Source: Hadesarchaea archaeon (GTDB lineage Archaea; Hadarchaeota; Hadarchaeia; Hadarchaeales; Hadarchaeaceae). From it: a stretch of 37,622 bases of DNA. A program made the position numbers and the translations under genes. Below, piece by piece: positions 8,031 through 28,015 of this stretch. Numbering within the stretch: the first letter of the stretch is position 1; each line of letters starts with the position of its first letter. The DNA lies in NCBI GenBank assembly GCA_030601675.1, contig JAUWBN010000011.1, forward strand, positions 1 to 37,622, written 5' to 3'. The notes under the pieces are model-generated. The model did not search any database, was not told where the DNA came from, and worked only from the letters and a program-made list of their open reading frames with translations.

Positions 8031-11000
8031 TCAGGGTTCTTTCCGATTAAGCGTCCACTCAGGGTGCGCCTGAGATTCGCCAGCTACGCCCACGCTTTGA
8101 GACGGTGCCGACGAAAGGGACTGTTTTTTCCACCACCATATCAGCACTATCGATATTACAACAATAATTATCACCCCAGCCACCACGGCCCAGTAGGGTG
8201 TTGGTGCTGCGGGCTTTTCGCCCGTCACCGCGAACCAAGATAGACTTGGCACCGTCGCCGAGAAATGCACGTGGCTTGCGTTTTCGCCCACGTTGGTCGT
8301 CGACACCTCTTGCCACGTGTTGTCCGTATTGTCCAACTTCCACAACTTCACATCTGCCGCCCCAATTCCGAGGTTGTCAAGCCAAGACTTCGCCACGTCA
8401 AATCTGATCTCGACATTATCGAGGTTATCCGCCGGAGCGTTTGTCTCTACCTCAAAATAGTACGTCGCCGTGCCGGGTGCCGCCTCGGAGACCTCGGCGG
8501 GCTTTTCTTGAACCACCTTAACCTCAACCTCAACGTTGTCAATATTATCCTTCGCGAACAGATTGATGCCCGTCACCAGAAGGCCAAATTGACCGAAATC
8601 CGCGAGTTTATTCTCGTTTTCGGCTATCGTGCCAAGCGACTCCATGTAGACCCCAGTCTCAAGTACGATCCAATTATCCACCACGGCTGACTCGTTCCCG
8701 GCATTATCTTTAACTTTGACGTAAACCCTCTTGTTTTCGTCGCCCGCGGGGAGGACGTAATCGTTCTCCGACTCGTACGGTTCCCAATCCGTCCAATTCT
8801 CGTTGTCATTGCTGAACCTCATCTGGTCGAGGCCGGAGAGATTGTCCGGGTCCTGCGCAACGATCGAAATGACGACCGAGGTCGAGGGGGTCACCATATT
8901 TTCCCCGTTTATCTGGACCGATGAAATAGTGGGAAGCACCCTGTCGAATCCCGCGTTCTCATCCGCCGTAGACGGTGCAGCCTCGGTCTGGTCATCGTCA
9001 TCGGTCGCGCGGGTGTAAAACTCATAGTGCCCGTCGTTGTCCGGCGCGTCAAACGCCCACGACCAGGGGGAGCTATTGTCGACTCCGAAGTTATCCCACG
9101 AGCCCCAGCTCGCGCCCGAATTTTCGCGGTAGCGGTACCAGAGCGTGACGTTGTCGACCGTGCCATCGTTGTCGCTTGCGGTGGCCGTGATCGTGACGGA
9201 GGCAGATCGCCAATAGGGGGAGATCGTGTCGACCGAAGAAGTTGGCGGTATGAACGGGGAAGTTGTAAATTGCTGGTCGCTGGACAATGGGGCGGTATTG
9301 CCTGCCGCGTCGATTGAGCTCACCCTGTAGTGATAAGTCGTGTTCTCCGACAGTCCACTCAAGGTTATGGAGTGACCAGTGCCCAAAGAGTTGTCCGATT
9401 GGGTCAACCCATAATCGGTAGTCTCCCCGTACCACACGACGCTGGTGGCGGGCTCGTCGGTCGTCCACTCAATCGTGATGAAGGTTTTGCCGGGACTCGA
9501 TTCCGTTATCCCTGAAATCGTGGGGGGTGTGACATCGACGGTCAGGGTCATCAAGTACACATTGTCTGATTTGTTACCGGCCCGGTCGATCTCTTGGATA
9601 GACAGTTCGTGGGTATTCTCGCTCAGCGTGTCGCTTATGAACACGACTTCACCGTCGTTATCGCTGTCGGCCGCGGAGCCCACCAGGCCATCGATATCAG
9701 ACCAGAGTTTTACGGTTGACCCGTTCTCGTCACAGGTGACCTCGACCAGGAACTCGGTTTCTGAGATCGCGCCCCCGGTCACTACTGTGAGTGTGTCGGG
9801 ATCCATTATGGTCACGTTATCCGCTGATGGCGTGGGTTTCTCAGTATCGATGAGAAGCGTCCAGACCTCCGAGAAGTGGCTATTCTCCTGGTTAAAGGCG
9901 CGAACTTTCCAAAACCAATTCTCATCCGCCCAGCCATCTGTCGGGTAATTCTCATCGTTATTATCATAAATGTTGTCGGTGGTATTATCTTTGAAAAGAT
10001 TAGCCGACGAAAACGTTGAGTCATTGTCAATCCAGATCTCATAGTTATCTACTACCACCTTGTTTTCCCAAGTGAAGGTAGGAGTATTTTCGTTCGTAAC
10101 GGTGCCATCGATAGGTGAAACAAGGGAGGGCATCGAAACGTCTACACAGAAGGAGTTATCTGACCAATCGCCCACATTTCCCGCGTTGTCCTTCGCCCGA
10201 ACCCTCCAGTACCAGTTACCGTCGGCCAGTTCGTTCTCCACCTGATAGTTGTCATCCAAGATCCAGTCTGAGATCCAGCCCGAGTTCTCGTTCTCGTGGG
10301 GGAACTCTGAGTTATCACTCACAGCGATGTAATAGCGAACAGGTGTGGAGTTATCCTTTGGGTCGAGGTTCTCCCAAGTAAGGGGTGGGGTGTTGTCGTT
10401 TATGATCTCGTTGTTTTCCGGTGAGATGAGGGAGGGTGCCGGAGGCGCCTCGGTGTCAATGGTTATGTAGAAAGTGTTATCTGACTGGGTCTGGTTCCCA
10501 GCGTAGTCAACCGCGATTACATACCAGTAGTGTTCCCCGTCAGTCAGTTCGGACGCGTTCTCGGAGGTCTGAGTGTTATCAGTAATCGTATTATCTAAGG
10601 AACCGTCGACATAAAGCAGGTAATTATCTATTCCACCCAAGTCAGAACTAGCATTCCAAGAGAGTTCGGGCGTGTTATCGTTGTCGTGAATGCCGTTTTC
10701 GGGGGAGGCTAGAGTGAACGAGTTCGGGGCCTGAGTGTCGACCCTGAATGTCCAGGTATTCTCTGACCAGTTCTCCCCACCAGCATTCTCCGCCATGACC
10801 TTCCAATAGTAGACGCCATCAGCCAGCGCGTTCTCGAGCGGCGTGATGAAGAAGTTATCCCCGACGATCACGTTATCTATTGCGTTTTCCCCATCCGCGA
10901 AGTTCTGGTCGTTGTCGACTACAAGCCTATGGTTGTCCGCGCCCGCGCCGTTCTCCCACCAGAAGGTCGGCTGGTTTTCACTTATATTCTCATTGTTCTT

Positions 11001-11123
11001 CGGTGAAACTAGGACGGGCTTGCTTGGCTGCGCAGATGCAGATAAATTAACGATTAGAAGCAGCGCTAGGGCCAAGAGCATGCCGACGATGAGACGTGAT
11101 TTCCGTATACTCCCCACCTCCAC
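8031..11123 (-). CDS. Large membrane-anchored surface protein with Ig/FnIII-like repeats
   Basis: This 1030-residue protein starts with a signal peptide (KSRLIVGM, then LLALALLLIVNLSASA). Four copies of a repeat of about 95 residues follow, each opening with P-x-L-x-SP-x-N/D-G/N and N-T-P-x-x-x-W and closing with DG-x-x-YWxV-x-A and a DT linker. Next come a fibronectin-III-like module (TTYHYRVSSIDAAGNT) and further Ig-like modules. A domain like the PGF-pre-PGF family follows (YYFEVETNAPADNLDNV to SLSWFAV, about residues 865-965). One membrane helix (WAVVAGVIIIVVISIVLIWWW) and a 33-residue inner tail end it; there is no PGF-CTERM signal. By hand count about 73 of 97 Asn follow Asp or Glu. The GTG start is uncertain by a few codons (another GTG lies two codons later). 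It probably forms part of the cell surface; its partner is unknown. Confidence 0.85.
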   Translation of the reverse strand: MEVGSIRKSRLIVGMLLALALLLIVNLSASAQPSKPVLVSPKNNENISENQPTFWWENGAGADNHRLVVDNDQNFADGENAIDNVIVGDNFFITPLENALADGVYYWKVMAENAGGENWSENTWTFRVDTQAPNSFTLASPENGIHDNDNTPELSWNASSDLGGIDNYLLYVDGSLDNTITDNTQTSENASELTDGEHYWYVIAVDYAGNQTQSDNTFYITIDTEAPPAPSLISPENNEIINDNTPPLTWENLDPKDNSTPVRYYIAVSDNSEFPHENENSGWISDWILDDNYQVENELADGNWYWRVRAKDNAGNVGDWSDNSFCVDVSMPSLVSPIDGTVTNENTPTFTWENKVVVDNYEIWIDNDSTFSSANLFKDNTTDNIYDNNDENYPTDGWADENWFWKVRAFNQENSHFSEVWTLLIDTEKPTPSADNVTIMDPDTLTVVTGGAISETEFLVEVTCDENGSTVKLWSDIDGLVGSAADSDNDGEVVFISDTLSENTHELSIQEIDRAGNKSDNVYLMTLTVDVTPPTISGITESSPGKTFITIEWTTDEPATSVVWYGETTDYGLTQSDNSLGTGHSITLSGLSENTTYHYRVSSIDAAGNTAPLSSDQQFTTSPFIPPTSSVDTISPYWRSASVTITATASDNDGTVDNVTLWYRYRENSGASWGSWDNFGVDNSSPWSWAFDAPDNDGHYEFYTRATDDDDQTEAAPSTADENAGFDRVLPTISSVQINGENMVTPSTSVVISIVAQDPDNLSGLDQMRFSNDNENWTDWEPYESENDYVLPAGDENKRVYVKVKDNAGNESAVVDNWIVLETGVYMESLGTIAENENKLADFGQFGLLVTGINLFAKDNIDNVEVEVKVVQEKPAEVSEAAPGTATYYFEVETNAPADNLDNVEIRFDVAKSWLDNLGIGAADVKLWKLDNTDNTWQEVSTTNVGENASHVHFSATVPSLSWFAVTGEKPAAPTPYWAVVAGVIIIVVISIVLIWWWKKQSLSSAPSQSVGVAGESQAHPEWTLNRKEP

Positions 11124-17746: not shown

Positions 17747-17777
17747 TCCTAGGGCCCCCTCGAACTTGGGGTGGAGT

Positions 17778-19076
17778 GTGAAGCCGCGATTTGACATGCG
17801 CTTGGCGCTTATTGTCGCAGGTATTAGCATTTACGCTTACATCCTATTCCTACTGTTCGCTAAAAATTTAGCCTATTGGCCCGACTACCCCTTCCACCTC
17901 CACAACATCTGGGCGGCATCAAATGGTTTCCTGGGACAAGACCCGTTTCTCGCGGGCGGTGCTCATCTGACTTTGGCGTACGGTGCCCCGGTGACCTTTC
18001 TGGGTGTGCTCTTGTATCCACTCGTGGGTGTCTTCACCGTAGCGGTTTTGCTTGGCGTAGCTGCTCCAGGTATTTGGTTTTCCTCGAGGGCGATATTTAG
18101 GCATTTAGTTCAGGGGAGAGCCGCGACGCTTGGTGCATTTCTGGTGCTCTTGAATCCCTTCACGATATACCTGTTTCTGACGGCAAAGCTGCCGTTTATC
18201 TGGGGTCTCTGCCTCGCGTTGATGTCGGTTCACTTTTATTTCAAGGGGAGATGGATCTTTGCCGTGTTGTTAGGGGCGTTGGCAGTGATAACGCACCCAA
18301 TGGCCATCTTTTTACTTGGCGCTCCAGTTCTGCTCACCCAGAATATCATGGGTTGGCTGAAGACATATTTTGTCCCTTCAGGAATATTTCTTGCGCAAAT
18401 GGTAATGCTCTTTGGGATTTCGTTCCACGCCGCATCCGAGATTCACGCTTTGAATATTCTGTTTCTGTCTGGAGCATTGGTAACTGTGCTGTGGCTGAGG
18501 AAAGACTGCCGGCTTCTTTGTGTCGTCGGGCTCTTGGTTTTGCTTGCTTCGGCGGCAAGCTTTTTTGGTTTACCAGTTCCTGGCGCAATTGTGCTAGATA
18601 GAGTTGGCTTTGTCGCTCTGCTGTTTACGCTGCCGTTTCTGATGCAGAAGTATGCACCGCTCGCACTAGTCTTTATACTACTCTCAGCGGGAGTTGTTGT
18701 TGCACATTCTCCAATTCCAGACAATCCTGCGGCGTACGACAACCTATCGCCTGAACTCGTGGAGCTCCTGAGCACAAGCGAAGTCAGATATGCATCTGAT
18801 GGCTCAGCTCTTTACATACTGCCAAAGCTGGGCATCAGATTCACTAACGAGGGAAGGGAGTCTTCCGAAGAAGCGCCCGATAATCTTGAGGCGTACGTTG
18901 AGTTGATAGAGGCAGAAAACGCTTCCTACGTTCTCATCTACAATGGCTATAGTAAACACTCTTGGCGTGCTCAGGCAGAAGAGAATATGATTCAAGAACT
19001 CGGGTACTCGCTAATCTACTCTCAAGACAACATAAGGGTCTACAAAACACATCTAGCACTCGAAAATGTCCCTTAG
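17778..19076 (+). CDS. Polytopic membrane protein, GT-C glycosyltransferase-like
   Basis: The 432-residue protein has about 10-11 hydrophobic helices up to residue ~320 and then a soluble C-terminal domain. The first outer loop carries an acidic YWPDYPFHLHN motif (residues ~35-45). That layout is typical of GT-C-fold enzymes, which take sugars from lipid-phosphate carriers. The C-terminal part (YVLIYNGYSKHSWRAQAEEN...QDNIRVYKTH) resembles the small mixed domain that closes several archaeal relatives. Substrate and family are not certain. The start could be TTG 17766, GTG 17778 (GGTGGAG just upstream) or ATG 17796. It opens the glycan region on the plus strand. Confidence 0.65.
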   Translation: MKPRFDMRLALIVAGISIYAYILFLLFAKNLAYWPDYPFHLHNIWAASNGFLGQDPFLAGGAHLTLAYGAPVTFLGVLLYPLVGVFTVAVLLGVAAPGIWFSSRAIFRHLVQGRAATLGAFLVLLNPFTIYLFLTAKLPFIWGLCLALMSVHFYFKGRWIFAVLLGALAVITHPMAIFLLGAPVLLTQNIMGWLKTYFVPSGIFLAQMVMLFGISFHAASEIHALNILFLSGALVTVLWLRKDCRLLCVVGLLVLLASAASFFGLPVPGAIVLDRVGFVALLFTLPFLMQKYAPLALVFILLSAGVVVAHSPIPDNPAAYDNLSPELVELLSTSEVRYASDGSALYILPKLGIRFTNEGRESSEEAPDNLEAYVELIEAENASYVLIYNGYSKHSWRAQAEENMIQELGYSLIYSQDNIRVYKTHLALENVP

Positions 19077-19889: not shown

Positions 19890-20894
19890 CTACCTCACCG
19901 CGTAGAAATCCTTTACCCTCACTACATCCTCAGGGTGGGGTGTCGAGATCTCGTGAATCAATGTGTTTTTGGAGGCTATGAAACTGTGAATGACTTTGGG
20001 CTTGATGTGTATCTTTATCCCCTTCCTGAACCGCCTCCGCTTGCCCCGCTCGAACTCAATCCACCCAACACCACCGAGCACGTGAAGGGTCTCATCCCTG
20101 ACTTCATGATAATGGAGCGAGGTTCGGTAGCCGGCCATGAGGAAAAGCAATTTTTCCATTCGTTTGTTGGTGAGTTTGAGCAACTTTTCGTGCCCCCAGG
20201 GTTTGTCCGTGCGATTTGAATACTCCTTCCTGACCTCCTCTAAATCCTTCGCCGTGTCAATCGCCGCCCAAAATGGGTCCCCATCCTCTTTGTAGCACGC
20301 GAGTTGTCCGCGGGTTGCAAGCTCTGGAAACACCGTGCGCTCGATGTTTCCTGTTTTGAACTTCTCAAGCAGACCCAGCACGCGCCTAGAAAGGCAGTAG
20401 TAGCCCGCGTTGATGTAGTGCTCGAGCAGCGGCTTCTCCTCGAATGACTTGATACGCCCCCCCGCGAGCCGCAGGATGCCGTAGGGGCTCCGCATCCGTG
20501 TGACGAACATCGACGCCGCGCAGCGAGTTCTTGTGAATCCTCGCATCATCCGCTTTAGGTTGATGTCTGCGACCACGTCACCATTACTAACGACTACATC
20601 CGCGTCAGCTTCCTTCAGACCCAACCTGATTGCGTTGAGCGTGCCGAGGGGCTTTTTCTCAACTATGTACTCAATTTTGAGCCCTCTGTACTCACTGCCG
20701 CATTTCTGCCTAATTTTTCCACCGAGATGACCTGTGAGCAGGAACACGCGATCGATGCCAGCGCTCTTGTAGCCGGAAAGTTGTCTGTCCAGAATTGTGT
20801 AACCGGGCTTGAGCTCGAGCAGCACTTTTGGTACCTTACCCGTTAGGGGGCGCATACGCTTGCTGAGCCCCCCGCAGAGGATCATGCCTATCAC
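19890..20894 (-). CDS. Sugar-1-phosphate nucleotidyltransferase fused to a C-terminal cupin
   Basis: The 334-residue protein has two parts. Residues 1-230 form an NTP-transferase domain: MILCGGLSKRMRPLTGKVPKVLLELK, VVSNGDVVADINLK, FEEKPLLEHYINAGYY, FWAAIDTAKDLEEV. It would make an NDP-sugar from a sugar-1-phosphate. Residues ~235-334 form a cupin like that of mannose-6-phosphate isomerase (KPWGHEKLL, LHYHEVRDETLHVLGG, IKPKVIHSF). Together the domains suggest supply of GDP-mannose or a related donor to the glycosyltransferases nearby. The start is ATG 20894 or 20885 (MILCGG). An AT-rich box (AAGATATTTAG near 20930) is the likely promoter. Confidence 0.85.
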   Translation of the reverse strand: MIGMILCGGLSKRMRPLTGKVPKVLLELKPGYTILDRQLSGYKSAGIDRVFLLTGHLGGKIRQKCGSEYRGLKIEYIVEKKPLGTLNAIRLGLKEADADVVVSNGDVVADINLKRMMRGFTRTRCAASMFVTRMRSPYGILRLAGGRIKSFEEKPLLEHYINAGYYCLSRRVLGLLEKFKTGNIERTVFPELATRGQLACYKEDGDPFWAAIDTAKDLEEVRKEYSNRTDKPWGHEKLLKLTNKRMEKLLFLMAGYRTSLHYHEVRDETLHVLGGVGWIEFERGKRRRFRKGIKIHIKPKVIHSFIASKNTLIHEISTPHPEDVVRVKDFYAVR

Positions 20895-20975
20895 TCGCTC
20901 ACCGCTGTGGTTTTTAACCCTCGCTCGCTAAATATCTTAACTTTAGGGGATGAATGCCCAAAAGCAAAACGCCAA

Positions 20976-22070
20976 CTACTGTAGAAGAGAAGAGTAGAAT
21001 CTGATCCACTGCTCCCCGATCCTTTTGGAGGAGAACTTCTCCGCCTTCTCGCGCGCCTTCCTCCCCATCTTCTGCCAACGCCGCTCGTCCGCCAATAGCC
21101 TAATCACATAATTGGCGAGTTCATCCGAACTGCCTGGTCGAAACAGGTAGCCGTCCACGCCGTGGGTTATCACATCCTTCAGCCCCAGGGCATCGGCTCC
21201 CACGACCGGTCTCCCGCACGCCATCGCCTCGAGGGCGACCAGCCCCTGAGTTTCCGTTTCGGAGGGCATGGCAAAGACATCGCATGCCCTGTACGCCTCT
21301 ATCAGGTCCGACAGATCTAAGTAACGTTCGAAAACGAAGCTATCGGTCAAGTTTCTCTTCCCGACCAGCTTTTTGTACCACGCCTCATGAATACCTGTGC
21401 CAATTATCCTGAACCTAGCCTTGGGGTATTCCCTCAAAATCTTGGGCGCTGCGTCTATCAACACCTCTATCTTCTTTTCCTTGCCCAACCTCCCGACAAA
21501 TAAGACGCAGGGATTTTTGTTCCGTGGCCTTTCCCCCGGACGAAAGAGGCCCACATCGACGGCGTTTGGGATCACGTACACGTTTTTCAAACCTCTCTCA
21601 ACAAGGCGCTCCCTCATCGGGTTGGAGGGAGTTGTCACGACGTTGCAGCGCTTGTAAAACATAGTGACGTATTTCCAAGTGAGCCTACTCAGCAGGGGGC
21701 CCAAAGTTTCAGAGATGTAGTGAGTGTACTCGGGGATGAGCGTGTGAAAAGTCCCTACGGCAGGGAGGGTGAGTTCTCTCGCGGCTTTTATCCCCGCCGC
21801 TCCTAAAGAGAAGGGCGTGTGAACGTGGACTATGTCTATGTCTTCCTTCCTGAAAATTTTGGCTACCATCTTCGGTCTGAAGAAGGCTATCTTATAGTCT
21901 GGTTGGAGGTAAAACGTGAAGGAGCGAAAGCTGTGTACGTGTTTCACCTTGGTCGGGGCAAAGATATGAACTTCGTGCTTCTTCCCGACCTCCCCCGCGA
22001 TTGAGTCGATGGAGCTCACCACGCCGTTGACCTGCGGGTGGTAAGTATCCGTCATCAGGGCTATTTTCAA
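20976..22070 (-). CDS. GT4-family glycosyltransferase (diacylglycerol-glycosyltransferase-like)
   Basis: This is a GT-B enzyme of the GT4 family. The start, LKIALMTDTYHPQVNGVVSSI, and VHVHTPFSLGAAGIKAARELTLPAVGTFHTLIPEYTHYI resemble the SQD2/alMGS group that adds sugars to lipid acceptors. The donor-site E-x7-E motif is in PSETETQGLVALEAMACGRPVVG. No signal peptide is present; it is probably peripheral to the inner membrane. The TTG at 22070 gives the family N-terminus and begins four bases after the deacetylase stop; the ATG at 22100 (MWDKGLERSR) would overlap that gene by 26 bases. It is the last gene of the GT4-CE4-GT4 operon. Confidence 0.85.
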   Translation of the reverse strand: MKIALMTDTYHPQVNGVVSSIDSIAGEVGKKHEVHIFAPTKVKHVHSFRSFTFYLQPDYKIAFFRPKMVAKIFRKEDIDIVHVHTPFSLGAAGIKAARELTLPAVGTFHTLIPEYTHYISETLGPLLSRLTWKYVTMFYKRCNVVTTPSNPMRERLVERGLKNVYVIPNAVDVGLFRPGERPRNKNPCVLFVGRLGKEKKIEVLIDAAPKILREYPKARFRIIGTGIHEAWYKKLVGKRNLTDSFVFERYLDLSDLIEAYRACDVFAMPSETETQGLVALEAMACGRPVVGADALGLKDVITHGVDGYLFRPGSSDELANYVIRLLADERRWQKMGRKAREKAEKFSSKRIGEQWIRFYSSLLQ

Positions 22071-22074
22071 CCTA

Positions 22075-22836
22075 CTACGCTCCAGACCCTTGTCCCACAT
22101 GCTTGGGCATCGCCGGTTGGATTCCAACCCCGCGAAGCGATGCTATTTCCCTCATCAATTTAAACTTCACTTTTTTTGCTAGCAGGTAATCTAGCACTTT
22201 GTCCAGCCGCTGCAATGCGACCTCGCCAGTGGCAAATCTGCAATCAAATCTAACCCCAGTTACTTTAACGAGCTCCCAAGGGTGATAGTCCAAAACCGTC
22301 AGCGGCAACATGACCAAACATAAACGCAACACGCGTGTGGAAAATCCCGGTGGTAAACGGAGAAAACTCGAGGGCCATGTGTTGCGAATTTCGGCCAACC
22401 CAAAACGAGTGGGATCTGGACCGATTCTGTAGCATGCATTTGATGCGTCGTAAAGGTAACCCACTCGCTTAAGAGCTGCGAAGGTGTGGATGTTCGGTCT
22501 GAAGTTTGGTGCCCTGAACCCCAATATCTTCCGCCGAGTGACCTTGGTCAGTATCTTCGTTGCTAGCTTAATCCTCCGAAGTTGCTCTTTGGCGCTCATT
22601 TTATCGAATCTTTCATGCTCATAACCATGACAGCCAACTTCATGCCCACGTGAAACCTTGCGAATCAATTTTGGAAACTTCTCGGCTGCTTGACCTGTCA
22701 CGAAAAATGTGGCGGGAACCTCATGCTTCGAAAGTAAATCCAAAAGGGATGGCAATCCTTCCTCCACGCCTCGCCACGTATTTAAAGATGGGGGGGCATC
22801 CTGCTCGACATCAATGCTGAGTACGACGTTTCGCAT
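22075..22836 (-). CDS. Polysaccharide deacetylase (NodB-type, CE4)
   Basis: The 253-residue protein has the NodB fold. MRNVVLSIDVEQDAPP supplies the catalytic/metal Asp pair region, HEVPATFFVTGQAA is the ATFF motif, and GHEVGCHGYEHERFD gives the two metal His residues (H-x-x-E-H variant). GFRAPNFRPN is the R-x-P motif and LDYHPWEL the late His. It would remove N-acetyl groups from an amino sugar on a glycan or glycolipid. The ATG at 22836 overlaps the upstream glycosyltransferase gene by 26 bases, and AAGGTGTG lies upstream, so expression is coupled. There is no signal peptide, so it should act on the cytoplasmic face on an intermediate. Confidence 0.88.
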   Translation of the reverse strand: MRNVVLSIDVEQDAPPSLNTWRGVEEGLPSLLDLLSKHEVPATFFVTGQAAEKFPKLIRKVSRGHEVGCHGYEHERFDKMSAKEQLRRIKLATKILTKVTRRKILGFRAPNFRPNIHTFAALKRVGYLYDASNACYRIGPDPTRFGLAEIRNTWPSSFLRLPPGFSTRVLRLCLVMLPLTVLDYHPWELVKVTGVRFDCRFATGEVALQRLDKVLDYLLAKKVKFKLMREIASLRGVGIQPAMPKHVGQGSGA

Positions 22837-23968
22837 GTTCTTCACACACCTTCTCATAGAGTTCAAGAGTTTGTCTGGCCGCCCTTTCCCAGGTGAATTT
22901 CTCGCGTACAATTTTTAAACCGCTCTGCCGAAGACGCTTTGCCAGCTGCTTGTCATTCAGGATGCGTGTAATCGCGTTAGTCAGTGCATCAACGTTCGCT
23001 GGGGGGACCATTAGCCCGTTTATCCCATCTTCGATAATTTCAGAAACACCGCCTGCCCTGGGACACACAACAGGCACACCAACTCCCATGGCTTCCAGTA
23101 GCGTGAAGGGAGATGACTCGACTATTGAAGGTAAAACAAATACATTTGCTGCCGCCATCAGTTCTGCCACTTGCCCATGTGGCAACGCCCCAAGCATAAA
23201 TATCGAATCCTCGATGCCTAGTTCTCTAATCTGAGCGCGCAAATTCGCGGCCTCCGGACCCTTGCCCGCTATTGCCAATTTCGCGTCCGGTAAGCTCTTG
23301 CGCACTTTCAAGAACGCAGCCACGAGGTAGTGCATCCCCTTCCGCCTGACCAACCGAGTTGCGCTCACGACAAGCGACTCTGACTTAAGCCCCAAGCGGA
23401 CACGCATTTGTGAACCGTCAACGGCTGGGTTAAATTTTAATAAATCGACGCCATTCGGGATGACTTCCATCTTGTGGTCTGGAACGCCTAGCACACGACA
23501 AAATTCTCTTGTCGCGTTGCTGACAACTATCACGCGATTTGCGCGGCACACCATGAGCACCAACGGTCGGTAGATGAGTTGCCAGAGGCCAGCCGTTTTA
23601 TGAATCGAGTGGCAGGTCAGCACAGATGGTATTCGGCGCCTGCGGGCGGAGTATATGGATTGCAACGCCATCGGTGAATATATGTCCTGGCCATGAACCA
23701 CATCAAACCCACCAAACTTGATGCATTCGTGGAGACGCTTGGCAAGGCTAGCCGAGATAGCGCGATTGAAACGTGGTATGACGAAGCCCTTTAGACGCTT
23801 GACCGTTAACCCGTCGAACTCCTCTCCCTCGGCTTGCCCCGGATGAGTATGGGTAAAAAGGGTTGGTTCCGCATCTAGCTTAGCCAATGCCGTGCCCAAC
23901 CCCATGGTATAAGCGGGTGCTCCGCCTATGGCTGGGTAAAATTCGTCGCCGACCATTGCGATACGCAA
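22811..23968 (-). CDS. GT4-family glycosyltransferase
   Basis: This is a 385-residue GT-B glycosyltransferase: MRIAMVGDEFYPAIGGAPAYTMGLG at the start with the acceptor-site glycine loop, VVHGQDIYSPMALQSIY, VIPNGVDLLKFNP, ATRLVRRKGMHYLVAAF. The donor-site motif is PSIVESSPFTLLEAMGVGVPVV. It is the first gene of a GT4-CE4-GT4 operon. The order suggests that it adds an N-acetylated sugar, which the next enzyme then deacetylates, as in PIG-A/PIG-L type steps; this is inference from order only. The start ATG is the first in the frame and matches family N-termini. Confidence 0.88.
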   Translation of the reverse strand: MRIAMVGDEFYPAIGGAPAYTMGLGTALAKLDAEPTLFTHTHPGQAEGEEFDGLTVKRLKGFVIPRFNRAISASLAKRLHECIKFGGFDVVHGQDIYSPMALQSIYSARRRRIPSVLTCHSIHKTAGLWQLIYRPLVLMVCRANRVIVVSNATREFCRVLGVPDHKMEVIPNGVDLLKFNPAVDGSQMRVRLGLKSESLVVSATRLVRRKGMHYLVAAFLKVRKSLPDAKLAIAGKGPEAANLRAQIRELGIEDSIFMLGALPHGQVAELMAAANVFVLPSIVESSPFTLLEAMGVGVPVVCPRAGGVSEIIEDGINGLMVPPANVDALTNAITRILNDKQLAKRLRQSGLKIVREKFTWERAARQTLELYEKVCEEHAKRRTQH

Positions 23969-24155
23969 AGTGCCACCAGTTTTAAGAATCTCATTAGCAC
24001 AAATAAAAGACCCCTATAATCTATAATCCAGACTCTACGATCAGCGAATTTTCAAGCCTGATAAACGACCCATGATCGACTATTTTTTAAATCCAGATTA
24101 CACCCATAGGGGCCTAACCTAGCGCCTTATTGGGATACGATGGTTCTGGGGGGCA

Positions 24156-25193
24156 TCAGCGCCAAACCTTCTCTCGGAAATATCCTATATCGTCTCTCAA
24201 AAGCAATGAAAACGAACGCCAGTCGCGGGGCATGGCAAGTTCGGAAGTCTCAAGATAACATCTAATTATGCATCCATCACAAAACGGATAACGACCGCAT
24301 CCTGCTCTGACCTTCCAAGCAAGCCCGGAATCCCATGCATCCCTAACGTGCAAATATTCCCGACTCAAATCGAAATGAGCTTCTGGATAGTACAAACAAG
24401 GCAAAAGCATCTGCCCGTTCGCTGTAACTGTTGCCATGACTGAAGCAGCTCTGCAGATGGGTTTTTCTATCCGGTTGCCCCCTTTTCGTAAAAGCTCAAT
24501 CATATTTCTACTTATGATGAGATTTGGAAATTTCCTCGCTGCCTCAAGTCGATTTGCACATTCTTGATAATCAACGGTCATCTCTGCAACATCGGTTTCG
24601 TCATGGTCATGTTCAAGAGGTGCCGGAAAAACGATGTTGACATTCATGTCTATCCCGAGGTTTTGGGCGAGTTCTGATAAACCCTTCAAGCGACCTAAAG
24701 TTTGATTGGTAAGCGTGCAAACGCCATTTACTGGCACTGAATATTCTTTAAACAATTTTAGAGCCTCAACGGCTCGAGCGTAAGCGCCCCGAATACCTCG
24801 GATGTGGTCATTTTCTTGGGGGACTGGGGAATCTATTGAAATTTGAGCCATATCCACAAAAGGCGCAAGTTCTCCAATTCGATCCTTGACCAGCCATCCA
24901 TTTGTATTGAGTGTCGTTAACAAGCCACAATCCTTTGCGTAAGCATAAAATTCTGGCAGTTCTTTCCTCAGCAAGGGCTCTCCACCTGTAAAATCAATGT
25001 TCAGAGTCCCAATATCCGTAAACTGCTTGACATGTTTTTTAACTTCGGAAGCTGGAGTTTCCGTTGGATAAAGTTGTTTTCCTTTGTACCAAAAGTTGCA
25101 GAAAATGCACTTAAAATTACAGGAAGCCGTAACATGGTAGTAAACGACAAGAGGAATCGGATCGCCAACAAGTGTATGACAGAAGGATTTCAG
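24156..25193 (-). CDS. Radical SAM enzyme with C-terminal cysteine-rich (SPASM-like) region; CTG start
   Basis: Read from the CTG at 25191-25193, the protein has 345 residues. The radical SAM cluster motif is CNFKCIFC (Cys25, Cys29, Cys32); FTGGEPLLRKELPEF gives the GGEP loop, and LNTNGWLV follows. The C-terminus has extra cysteines: CRAA, LPCLYYPEA, and GCGRYPFCDGCIIRCY, as in SPASM-type enzymes that bind auxiliary Fe-S clusters. No ATG, GTG or TTG occurs in frame before the TTG at 24974, which would delete the cluster motif. The CTG overlaps the TGA of the small membrane protein gene as CTGA, the geometry of ATGA couplings. The substrate is unknown; peptide or glycan/lipid modification is possible. 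Codon use is AT-rich compared with the flanks. Confidence 0.75.
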   Translation of the reverse strand: MKSFCHTLVGDPIPLVVYYHVTASCNFKCIFCNFWYKGKQLYPTETPASEVKKHVKQFTDIGTLNIDFTGGEPLLRKELPEFYAYAKDCGLLTTLNTNGWLVKDRIGELAPFVDMAQISIDSPVPQENDHIRGIRGAYARAVEALKLFKEYSVPVNGVCTLTNQTLGRLKGLSELAQNLGIDMNVNIVFPAPLEHDHDETDVAEMTVDYQECANRLEAARKFPNLIISRNMIELLRKGGNRIEKPICRAASVMATVTANGQMLLPCLYYPEAHFDLSREYLHVRDAWDSGLAWKVRAGCGRYPFCDGCIIRCYLETSELAMPRDWRSFSLLLRDDIGYFREKVWR

Positions 25194-25510
25194 TGCCCTA
25201 AAGACGACCGTAAAATCACCTTTATTTCGTCAAAATTCTGGTATACTTTTCTTCCAACAAATGCGATGGTAAAACCCGCCGCTACAAAATAAAGCCACCA
25301 AGGCGACGGCAAAAATGGAATTATTCCTAAAGAACCAAGTGTCCAAAGCACCCCTGCCGCAACTGCGCTAGGAGTAATCACTGCCCAAGCTAGCCATTTG
25401 TCTGCGTTTATAGCATATGCTCCAATGACAGCCCACAAGGAGCCGATGGTAAATGCCGCCACAAATCCCAATCCCGCCGTTGATAGAAATAATCCAAATA
25501 GTTCAAGCAT
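25190..25510 (-). CDS. Small three-helix membrane protein, partner of the radical SAM gene
   Basis: The 106-residue protein has three hydrophobic helices (about residues 3-32, 39-63 and 68-88) and a short basic/polar tail (RKVYQNFDEIKVILRSSLGH) facing the cytoplasm. No family was recognised. A GAAGGA ribosome site precedes the ATG. Its stop TGA overlaps the probable CTG start of the radical SAM gene, so the two are made together. It may anchor that enzyme at the membrane or be part of the same modification system. It is divergent from the B12-radical SAM gene. Confidence 0.65.
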   Translation of the reverse strand: MLELFGLFLSTAGLGFVAAFTIGSLWAVIGAYAINADKWLAWAVITPSAVAAGVLWTLGSLGIIPFLPSPWWLYFVAAGFTIAFVGRKVYQNFDEIKVILRSSLGH

Positions 25511-25582
25511 GTGTGGTCCTTCTCATTTTTATTTTTTTATCCCTGTCTCCATCTCGCGCTTGGCCACGTTCCTTTCCAACCG

Positions 25583-25589
25583 TTATATA
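25583..25589 (+). promoter_or_regulatory. TATA box for the B12-type radical SAM gene
   Basis: TTATATA is centred 36 bases before ATG 25622. That leaves a short leader with an AGAGGG ribosome-binding site at 25611-25616. Confidence 0.5.
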
Positions 25590-25621
25590 CTCAAATGATT
25601 AAAAACGTGTAGAGGGTCAAA

Positions 25622-27007
25622 ATGTCTTCCGTGCTCTTCATCTACCCCCCAATTAGCTTTAGCGAAAAGAGTGCGCTGTCCGCCTACTCCCCTCCTCTGG
25701 GGGCACTTTATCTGGCAACCATTCTCAAAAATGACGGGCATGAAGTGCACGTTATAGATGTCGAAGCGGAACGACTATCTCTAAAACAGGTGATCGAGAG
25801 GGTAAAATCGATTAATCCTGAGGTCATCGGATTGACTTGCCTCACATACACGCTCGATTCCTGCAAAACTATAATAAAAGAAGTCAGGGGGGTTACGGAT
25901 GCTTACATCGTCGTCGGGGGGGCCCATATCGCCGTCGCTCCGAGGGAGTCCCTTGAAAAACTTGGGGCAGACACTTACGTAGTTGGTGAAGCCGAATCGA
26001 TTATAGAAAAAATTGTGAAAGAAACGCCGCGGGGTGTGGTAAATCCAAAGGAAATTCAAAACGTCGACCCCATACCTTTTCCCGACCGAAGCTTGGTTAA
26101 GCATGTCAAATACGGCGTTTTTTACGGTTTGAATTTCGGGAAAAATATGACTGGAATCCTGAGCACGCGCGGCTGCAAATATGGATGCACCTACTGCAAC
26201 CGCCCAAAAAAGTTGGGTTTCAGGGTAAGATCTCCAAAAAACATCCTGCAGGAGTTAAAGGAAATTGACCGAATGGGAATAGAATCCGTGTGGCTGGCTG
26301 ACGACAATTTTACAAACAATCCTAAAAACGTGATAAAACTAGCTCGATTGATAAAAAGGGAAAAATTAAAGTTCAATTTCTTTGGACAAGCTAGGGTGGA
26401 TACTCCAAGTGAAGCTTTATACAAGAGCATGAGGGACATGGGCGTCATCGCCCTTAGCTATGGCGTCGAATCGCTTAAACCAGAAGTTATCCGGTGGTAT
26501 AACAAAACCAAGTATCCTGAAAAATGGCCTGCCTATGTAAGAAAAACTTTGAATCTGTGCGACGAATATGGGATCATTTTTCTCGGGAGCTTGATTTTCG
26601 GGGCCCCGATGGAAACAAAGGAAGACATGGAATATTCGATCGAATTTCTCGAGAAAAATGGAGCCGACCTGATCAACGGGAACGTGCTGCTGTACCTCGT
26701 TGGCTCAGCGATTTGGTACTCGGCAAGAAAGGCGGGTAAAATCAAAGCGGATCAATTTATCGTGCCAGCTCCGGAGGCTGGGTTAACGCCCTACTCATAT
26801 GAAGAGTTAGAAGAATTGTGCACTCGTTGTACAGATATGTGCAAGAGCGAGGGGTGGAAGAGGGTCTTTCGTAAACTTCTAAAAAATCGGAAGTTTGGAC
26901 TTATTTACTGGGGAGCGAGAGAACTCATCGGGCACTATTCACGTATGAGAAAAGTGCGCCGAGAGCTTTACGGCTATGGCTACGGAAAGGAATCCGTGGC
27001 CGTGTAA
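25622..27007 (+). CDS. B12-binding-domain radical SAM protein
   Basis: The 461-residue protein begins with a cobalamin-binding-like Rossmann domain: LFIYPPISF, YSPPLGALYLATILKNDGHEVHVIDVEAE, and VVGGAHIAVAPRESLEKLGADTYVVGEAE. A radical SAM domain follows with CKYGCTYC (Cys185, Cys189, Cys192), VWLADDNFTNNP, and YGVESLKPEVI. Such class B or BchE-like enzymes methylate or cyclise unreactive carbons; several act on membrane lipids. Neighbouring glycosyltransferase and lipid genes suggest a glycolipid or lipid substrate, but no specific reaction can be read off. Its codons are AT-rich. The promoter TATA and a ribosome site are both present. Confidence 0.85.
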   Translation: MSSVLFIYPPISFSEKSALSAYSPPLGALYLATILKNDGHEVHVIDVEAERLSLKQVIERVKSINPEVIGLTCLTYTLDSCKTIIKEVRGVTDAYIVVGGAHIAVAPRESLEKLGADTYVVGEAESIIEKIVKETPRGVVNPKEIQNVDPIPFPDRSLVKHVKYGVFYGLNFGKNMTGILSTRGCKYGCTYCNRPKKLGFRVRSPKNILQELKEIDRMGIESVWLADDNFTNNPKNVIKLARLIKREKLKFNFFGQARVDTPSEALYKSMRDMGVIALSYGVESLKPEVIRWYNKTKYPEKWPAYVRKTLNLCDEYGIIFLGSLIFGAPMETKEDMEYSIEFLEKNGADLINGNVLLYLVGSAIWYSARKAGKIKADQFIVPAPEAGLTPYSYEELEELCTRCTDMCKSEGWKRVFRKLLKNRKFGLIYWGARELIGHYSRMRKVRRELYGYGYGKESVAV

Positions 27008-27022
27008 TAAGCAAATGGGCAA

Positions 27023-28015
27023 TCACCTTTTCATTAAATGCTCGTACACTTCCCTAAGTTGTGCGCCAACTTTTTCAAGGGAATGTTCTCTTGAGAGCTT
27101 GTGCGCATTCTCAGCTAACCTGCGCCTTAGTTGCTCGTCTTCGATGAGTCTCTTCAGTTGCAATCCGAACTCCTCATCGGTTCTTGCTTTCAAACAGTTC
27201 ACTTCATTTACTAACTGACCGTCATATGCCAAAATATCCCTCACTAATATCGGTCTTCCGCACGCACCCGCCTCCAACGTCACGATCCCCTGATTCTCAC
27301 AAAAGCTCGGGAAGAAGAAAATATCACAACCTGAATACCCTGCTATTATGTCCTTCACATAACCGGCAAAAATCACATTTGGCGGGGCACTCTTTACAAT
27401 CCCTGATGTTCGGGGGTCCTCAATGCCCTTATACCTTCTTCCTATCCAAACAAATTTATTCTGAAATTTTTTTGCCGTGTTGATGAATGTGGCAATTCCT
27501 TTTTTTATGAACAAGTGGCCGACGCTGAGCGGGACAATTCCGTCTAGATTAAATTCCTCTCTAAACTCTTTTCTATTCTCGGCTGAAAATTTGAACTTGC
27601 CCAAATCTATGCCATTGCTAACAGCTCTGATCTCTTTTTTTACGCCATACCCGATCAACACGTTCTTAGTATACTCCGACGGGCACAACACTAAATCTGC
27701 TTGATTGTGAAAGTAAGTTAAATATCTACGTAAAAATGGAGCAATCTGATTGCTGAAGCAAAAACTGTCCCGGAAATCATCGGCAGTCAGGTGTGCGTGG
27801 GTTATCACTTTTTTTCCTTTTGCCCTCGCTTTTCTTATTGCTCGAATGGACCTCGGACCTATCATGTAGATGTGGAGAATGTCGAAATCATCTTTTAGAT
27901 TATGGGTATACTCAACTCCACTCAATTCGAGGGCTTTCCTGTGATTGCCCATAGCTGAGCCCATCCCGCTGTGTTTAAGCCACCGCCCCAACTCCAAGTA
28001 AATGCAAACTCTCAT
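27023..28015 (-). CDS. GT4-family glycosyltransferase
   Basis: The 330-residue GT-B enzyme is short for GT4. Its N-terminal domain is reduced (MRVCIYLELGRWLKHSGMGSAMGNHRKALELSG), followed by HAHLTADDF, VSNGIDLGKF, LSVGHLFIKKGI. The donor motif is PSFCENQGIVTLEAGACGRPILV. The pattern is close to archaeal and Gram-positive diacylglycerol glucosyltransferase-like enzymes that lengthen a glycolipid head group. It is convergent with the B12-radical SAM gene and follows the LPG-synthase-type gene after a 45-base gap. It probably acts on the cytoplasmic membrane face. Confidence 0.85.
   Translation of the reverse strand: MRVCIYLELGRWLKHSGMGSAMGNHRKALELSGVEYTHNLKDDFDILHIYMIGPRSIRAIRKARAKGKKVITHAHLTADDFRDSFCFSNQIAPFLRRYLTYFHNQADLVLCPSEYTKNVLIGYGVKKEIRAVSNGIDLGKFKFSAENRKEFREEFNLDGIVPLSVGHLFIKKGIATFINTAKKFQNKFVWIGRRYKGIEDPRTSGIVKSAPPNVIFAGYVKDIIAGYSGCDIFFFPSFCENQGIVTLEAGACGRPILVRDILAYDGQLVNEVNCLKARTDEEFGLQLKRLIEDEQLRRRLAENAHKLSREHSLEKVGAQLREVYEHLMKR

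Follow-up and report, generated by a model that had tools for sequence, protein, structure and literature searches.

A secretome-wide excess of acid-asparagine pairs in an order of Hadesarchaea, and a probable change of N-glycosylation sequon

The window, by which is meant the whole stretch of DNA analysed, comprises 37,622 nucleotides from the genome of a Hadesarchaea archaeon (G000; 938 kb, 85.6% complete). On its minus strand, from 8031 to 11123, lies an open reading frame of 1030 amino acids that encodes a secreted, membrane-anchored protein with Ig-like repeats of the Big_13 type. Hydropathy places a hydrophobic segment, either a signal peptide or a signal anchor, at its N-terminus (11025 to 11108, minus strand) and a membrane anchor near its C-terminus (residues 971-1001; 8121 to 8213, minus strand). 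Between the two is the outside part (residues 34-970; 8214 to 11024, minus strand), which includes a PGF-pre-PGF domain (residues 837-968; 8220 to 8615, minus strand; NCBIfam TIGR04213, E 1.2e-22, above the cut-off). A cluster of glycosyltransferases, together with a sugar-nucleotide transferase, is found near this gene at 19890 to 28015. One product of the cluster, from 27023 to 28015, resembles the glycosyltransferases that make glycolipid anchors (IagA/BgsA), at a score below the cut-off.

The surface protein contains 97 asparagines, and 73 of them directly follow an acid (41 Asp, 32 Glu), exactly the number that had been counted by hand in a preliminary description of this DNA. Such pairs will be called [DE]N, with positions numbered relative to the asparagine. 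Asp and Glu make up 16.2% of the residues, and when the protein was shuffled 5000 times, [DE]N appeared on average 15.7 times (sd 3.4) and never more than 28 times. All 73 pairs lie in the outside part and none in the tails. The gene uses all eight GAN-AAY codon pairs, so selection must act on the protein and not on the DNA, as the preliminary description had it. It was also right that ordinary N-x-S/T glycosylation does not account for the pairs: N-x-S/T sequons number 19 over the whole protein and coincide with only 14 of the 73 [DE]N, and Ser/Thr is not enriched at +2 of the pairs.

The preliminary description took the excess for a trait special to one surface protein, and this view has to be given up: it is a trait of the secretome of the whole order. 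The relevant figures were computed on samples, amounting to about 0.64 Mb for G000 and to smaller stretches for other genomes, with genes called as longest open reading frames and topology judged by hydropathy rather than by a trained signal-peptide predictor. In secreted regions the ratio of observed to expected [DE]N is 2.76 in G000, 4.08 in G023, and 3.69 in G015, all of the same Hadesarchaeal order, and in their cytosolic proteins it is 0.81, 0.92, and 1.13, respectively. An independent set of loci from other species of the order gives 3.12 times expectation, and 21 of 23 members, each represented by one sampled locus, reach at least 2.38 times. The surface protein, whose outside part stands at 4.4 times expectation, is among the highest in its own genome, yet its excess is shared by numerous unrelated proteins, secreted or in the membrane, while the cytosolic class has none. 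The 15 proteins that rank highest for [DE]N in the 0.64 Mb all have a hydrophobic signal or transmembrane segments. Several secreted proteins have little excess or none. The sister genome G027, from another order of the same phylum, shows none in its secreted regions (0.99).

Within membrane proteins the pairs sit in acidic segments of the outside type and are nearly missing from basic loops and tails of the cytosolic type. The window offers a second example in a membrane protein encoded from 17766 to 19076 on the plus strand, which matched no Pfam family and in which 7 of 15 asparagines are [DE]N (0.9 expected). Elsewhere, the protein at L016:4977-6638 has an Ig-like outside part in which 28 of 42 asparagines are [DE]N, then a transmembrane segment, and at the C-terminus a winged-helix (MarR-like) domain that is basic and lacks asparagine altogether; it is possibly a surface sensor and regulator in one piece. 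G023 (C1:97000-124500; L153-L155) encodes two huge surface proteins rich in [DE]N, whose open frames run to 7944 and 5638 amino acids.

What could such a pair be good for? One view is that it serves a physical or chemical role in hot, exposed proteins, such as binding cations, aiding solubility, or controlling the deamidation of asparagine, and the restriction of the bias to exposed proteins and loops is what one would then hope to see. It is too much to ask of this view, however, that it explain the rest. In secreted regions of the order, [DE]Q is not enriched (0.42-0.79), nor is the acid on the other side of the asparagine, N-[DE] (0.79-0.98), and the excess spans unrelated folds. The sister lineage does without it. 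Furthermore, the total of asparagine is raised, rather than a fixed number being protected: [DE]N constitutes 1.74% of secreted residues in G000 versus 0.26% of cytosolic residues, the figures for other asparagines being 2.72% and 2.32%, and thus most of the surplus asparagine of secreted proteins is [DE]N. Because the [DE]Q, cytosolic, and sister-lineage controls are all negative, cation binding and control of deamidation, both put forward in the preliminary description, are set aside, and a physical or chemical role of any sort is very improbable.

The context of the pairs is more telling. The acid is confined to position -1, and at -2 acids are fewer than expected (29 Glu versus 65, 29 Asp versus 48). 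Acids before Ser or Thr are likewise not enriched in secreted regions of the order (0.69-0.87). The pattern of PglB, with an acid at -2 and Ser/Thr at +2, is absent from secreted [DE]N, where +2 shows no enrichment of Ser/Thr. When homologues are compared, acids that change are exchanged for the other acid in 25 of 70 cases at [DE]N versus 35 of 232 elsewhere (p 3e-4, a value that is only approximate because the counts take both directions of each pair as well as related pairs). Where the acid at [DE]N is lost, the asparagine is lost with it in 38 of 45 cases.

Then there is proline. It occurs at +1 in 13 of 888 secreted [DE]N, compared with 63 of 1127 other secreted asparagines and 45 of 584 cytosolic [DE]N, and the independent set of loci repeats the contrast (2 of 453 versus 23 of 592, p 1.4e-4). 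The exclusion survives the removal of similar contexts (12 of 724 versus 56 of 978, p 1.4e-5) and loses significance under the harshest filter (6 of 199 versus 15 of 233, p 0.12). Its persistence bears on the suspicion that the pairs merely echo families of Ig-like repeats that by chance carry DN at certain positions, the dipeptide itself not being selected. Ig-like repeats are indeed common in these proteins, and certain DN positions do recur in them. Nevertheless, EN and DN are enriched to the same degree, and the excess is found where there are no such repeats: 8 of 10 asparagines in one loop of an M50 protease are [DE]N, as are 7 of 9 in the C-terminal outside-type segment (residues 319-436; 18720 to 19073, plus strand) of the second membrane protein of the window. 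Chance inheritance within repeats is hardly credible as the source of the excess.

The exclusion of proline at +1 is a structural signature of the acceptors of oligosaccharyltransferase (OST), set by the TIXE frame of its loop EL5 (PMC8342417). G000 has a single STT3/AglB-type protein above the family cut-off, encoded outside the window at L003:13025-16555 (on contig C35). It is 1176 amino acids long and belongs to the STT3 family by its score against PF02516 (38.6 bits, cut-off 24.5), it matches solved STT3A/B (E 4.7e-9), and against NCBIfam archaeo_STT3 it scores 52.5 bits, below the cut-off of 450. Across the phylum, 20 of 28 genomes have an OST above the family cut-off, including all 11 of higher quality (10 of the order and the sister G027), and only G021 has two. 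A second STT3-like match in G000, at C35:18462, proved to be a membrane protein of the PMT_2 type and not an OST. The contig of the OST also encodes, at L003:1925-5113, a PMT_2-type membrane glycosyltransferase-like protein (1062 amino acids) with [DE]N in its long segments of outside type.

What was kept and what was not can be read from an alignment in which 19 OSTs of the order stand beside 21 further ones. The catalytic and metal-binding acids are in place (the Asp of EL1 in 17 of 17; the Asp and the Glu/Asp of EL2 in 19 of 19), as are the Glu of EL5 at the TIXE position and Arg436, which contacts the phosphate of the lipid-linked oligosaccharide (LLO), both 19 of 19. At the position of WWD, the motif that forms hydrogen bonds with the Ser/Thr at +2 (PMC7226087), all 19 read [E/Q]WS. 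W..D is retained by 18 of the 21 others, among them that of the sister G027 (WWDYG). WWD is the clamp for Ser/Thr and not the reaction centre, and assignment to the STT3 family does not depend on it. In a tree all OSTs of the order group together in a single clade with a long stem. The outside domain of the G000 enzyme is itself rich in the pair (27 of 43 asparagines).

I propose that [DE]N are sites of N-glycosylation and that the OST of the order, reading position -1, recognises an altered sequon, [D/E]-N-(not P); judged from sequence, this is quite likely. Taken together, the exclusion of proline, the swap of WWD with the residues of catalysis kept, and the want of N-x-S/T enrichment (1.0-1.1 in secreted proteins of the order) point to N-glycosylation. 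With an excess of [DE]N on one side and, on the other, a sole detected OST that lacks the part that reads Ser/Thr, the lineage appears to have replaced the N-x-S/T signal. The order would then probably have altered a nearly universal signal, its OST reading an acid at -1 instead of Ser/Thr at +2 and its secretome being rewritten to match. The spacing of some [DE]N, which stand only two residues apart, counts against glycosylation, since this is tight for large glycans.

The model can be put as a series of steps. WWD, the clamp on Ser/Thr at +2, would have turned into [E/Q]-W-S, and Ser/Thr at +2 would no longer have been required. Specificity for the acceptor would have shifted to the -1 side, where a basic pocket in the OST would read Asp or Glu. 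Arg439 and Arg603, basic residues invariant in and specific to the lineage, are candidates for this task, but as a guess; a structure predicted from three sequences was set aside (pLDDT 32). Secreted proteins would have gained [DE]N sites and afterwards dense glycosylation outside the cell, the 73 pairs of the surface protein at 8031 to 11123 being proposed acceptor sites. That glycans are attached at all, that the OST at L003:13025-16555, the only one detected, of STT3/AglB type, is their writer, and that it reads -1 in this manner is what I infer.

Does the loss of WWD by itself foretell such a change? The correspondence between WWD and an excess of N-x-S/T is a loose one. Genomes G029 and G048, which possess OSTs with WWD, show N-x-T at 1.92 and 1.75 times expectation and no excess of [DE]N. 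G027 and G030 also bear WWD and yet have no excess of N-x-S/T (0.91 and 0.75), and so a missing excess is a weak test on its own. In G055 the OST (L121) reads LWPDG at this position, and the few secreted regions sampled there give N-x-T in excess, at 1.77. G029 has, in addition, two OSTs that lack WWD (EWNYG and DWSYG) and still no excess of [DE]N. Loss of WWD is therefore not sufficient, and the gain of reading at -1 would be the special step. Since the excess of [DE]N and the swap of the motif coincide only once in the tree, their link is not an independent correlation.

It might be argued, then, that the altered OST has nothing to do with the excess and that the dipeptide is selected by some other extracellular enzyme that modifies asparagine, or by a protein that binds [DE]N. 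The statistics, after all, show a recognition site of two residues outside the cell and name no enzyme, and G029 has paralogs that lost WWD with no excess to show for it. Nonetheless, the exclusion of proline at +1 fits an OST directly, as does the fact that the sole OST lost precisely the residues that bind Ser/Thr while keeping the catalytic ones. No other candidate turned up, in work that included no systematic search for one. I regard another enzyme, or a binding protein, as unlikely. The preliminary description was close to the mark in suggesting a recognition site for a modifying enzyme: the class is right, and the best candidate is the lineage's own OST with an altered sequon. For a protease site, which that description also raised, no evidence came to light.

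N-x-S/T is regarded as the core signal that OST-made N-glycosylation shares across the three domains, the only addition being an acid at -2 in some bacteria. A search of the literature outside most subscription journals and outside preprints turned up no earlier [D/E]-N sequon and no N-glycosylation in this phylum. What would be new is the [D/E]-N sequon; N-glycosylation of the OST type is itself known. If the model is correct, this lineage would illustrate the rewriting of an acceptor code along with very many target sites, it would provide protein engineers with an OST that has a sequon of two residues, and prediction from the usual sequon would overlook most glycosylation sites in these archaea.

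How does the proposed system compare with those already known? That WWDxG varies among AglBs present in several copies is already on record (PMC5131992). Families f6, f36, and f89 have AglB paralogs that read E/D/S-W-S/N-Y-G (EWSYG, DWSYG, SWSYG, EWNYG; L213 in G091, L218 in G071, L215 and L216 in G201, L104 and L129 in G029) and are altered at the same two positions of WWD as the OST of the order. These paralogs occupy a separate branch of the tree, however, and in the one genome tested, G029, are accompanied by no excess of [DE]N. In f6 and f36 the paralogs without WWD adjoin each other, and a canonical WWDFG copy lies elsewhere in the genome.

Archaeal AglB of the STT3 family, as in Archaeoglobus fulgidus, resembles the OST of the order in fold family (by sequence), in the acids of EL1 and EL2, in the Glu at the TIXE position, in the Arg that contacts the LLO, and in the exclusion of proline at +1. 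The OST of the order differs in having [E/Q]WS in place of WWD, in serving a secretome whose signal is [DE]N with no excess of N-x-S/T, and, in G000 and several relatives, in its C-terminal Ig-like repeats. Bacterial PglB, with its sequon D/E-x-N-x-S/T, also reads an acid N-terminal to the asparagine, by means of Arg331 (PMC7226087), but that acid is at -2, where the order is depleted in acids, and PglB needs Ser/Thr at +2, which the OST of the order would not, and retains WWD, which that OST does not. Finally, haloarchaea have sporadic non-canonical N-glycosites (PMC8241124, which cites Zeitler 1998 for such sites), and so N-glycosylation without Ser/Thr at +2 has a precedent in archaea. There it is a matter of a few exceptions in an otherwise canonical system, whereas in the order considered here the signal is of another form and extends throughout the secretome.
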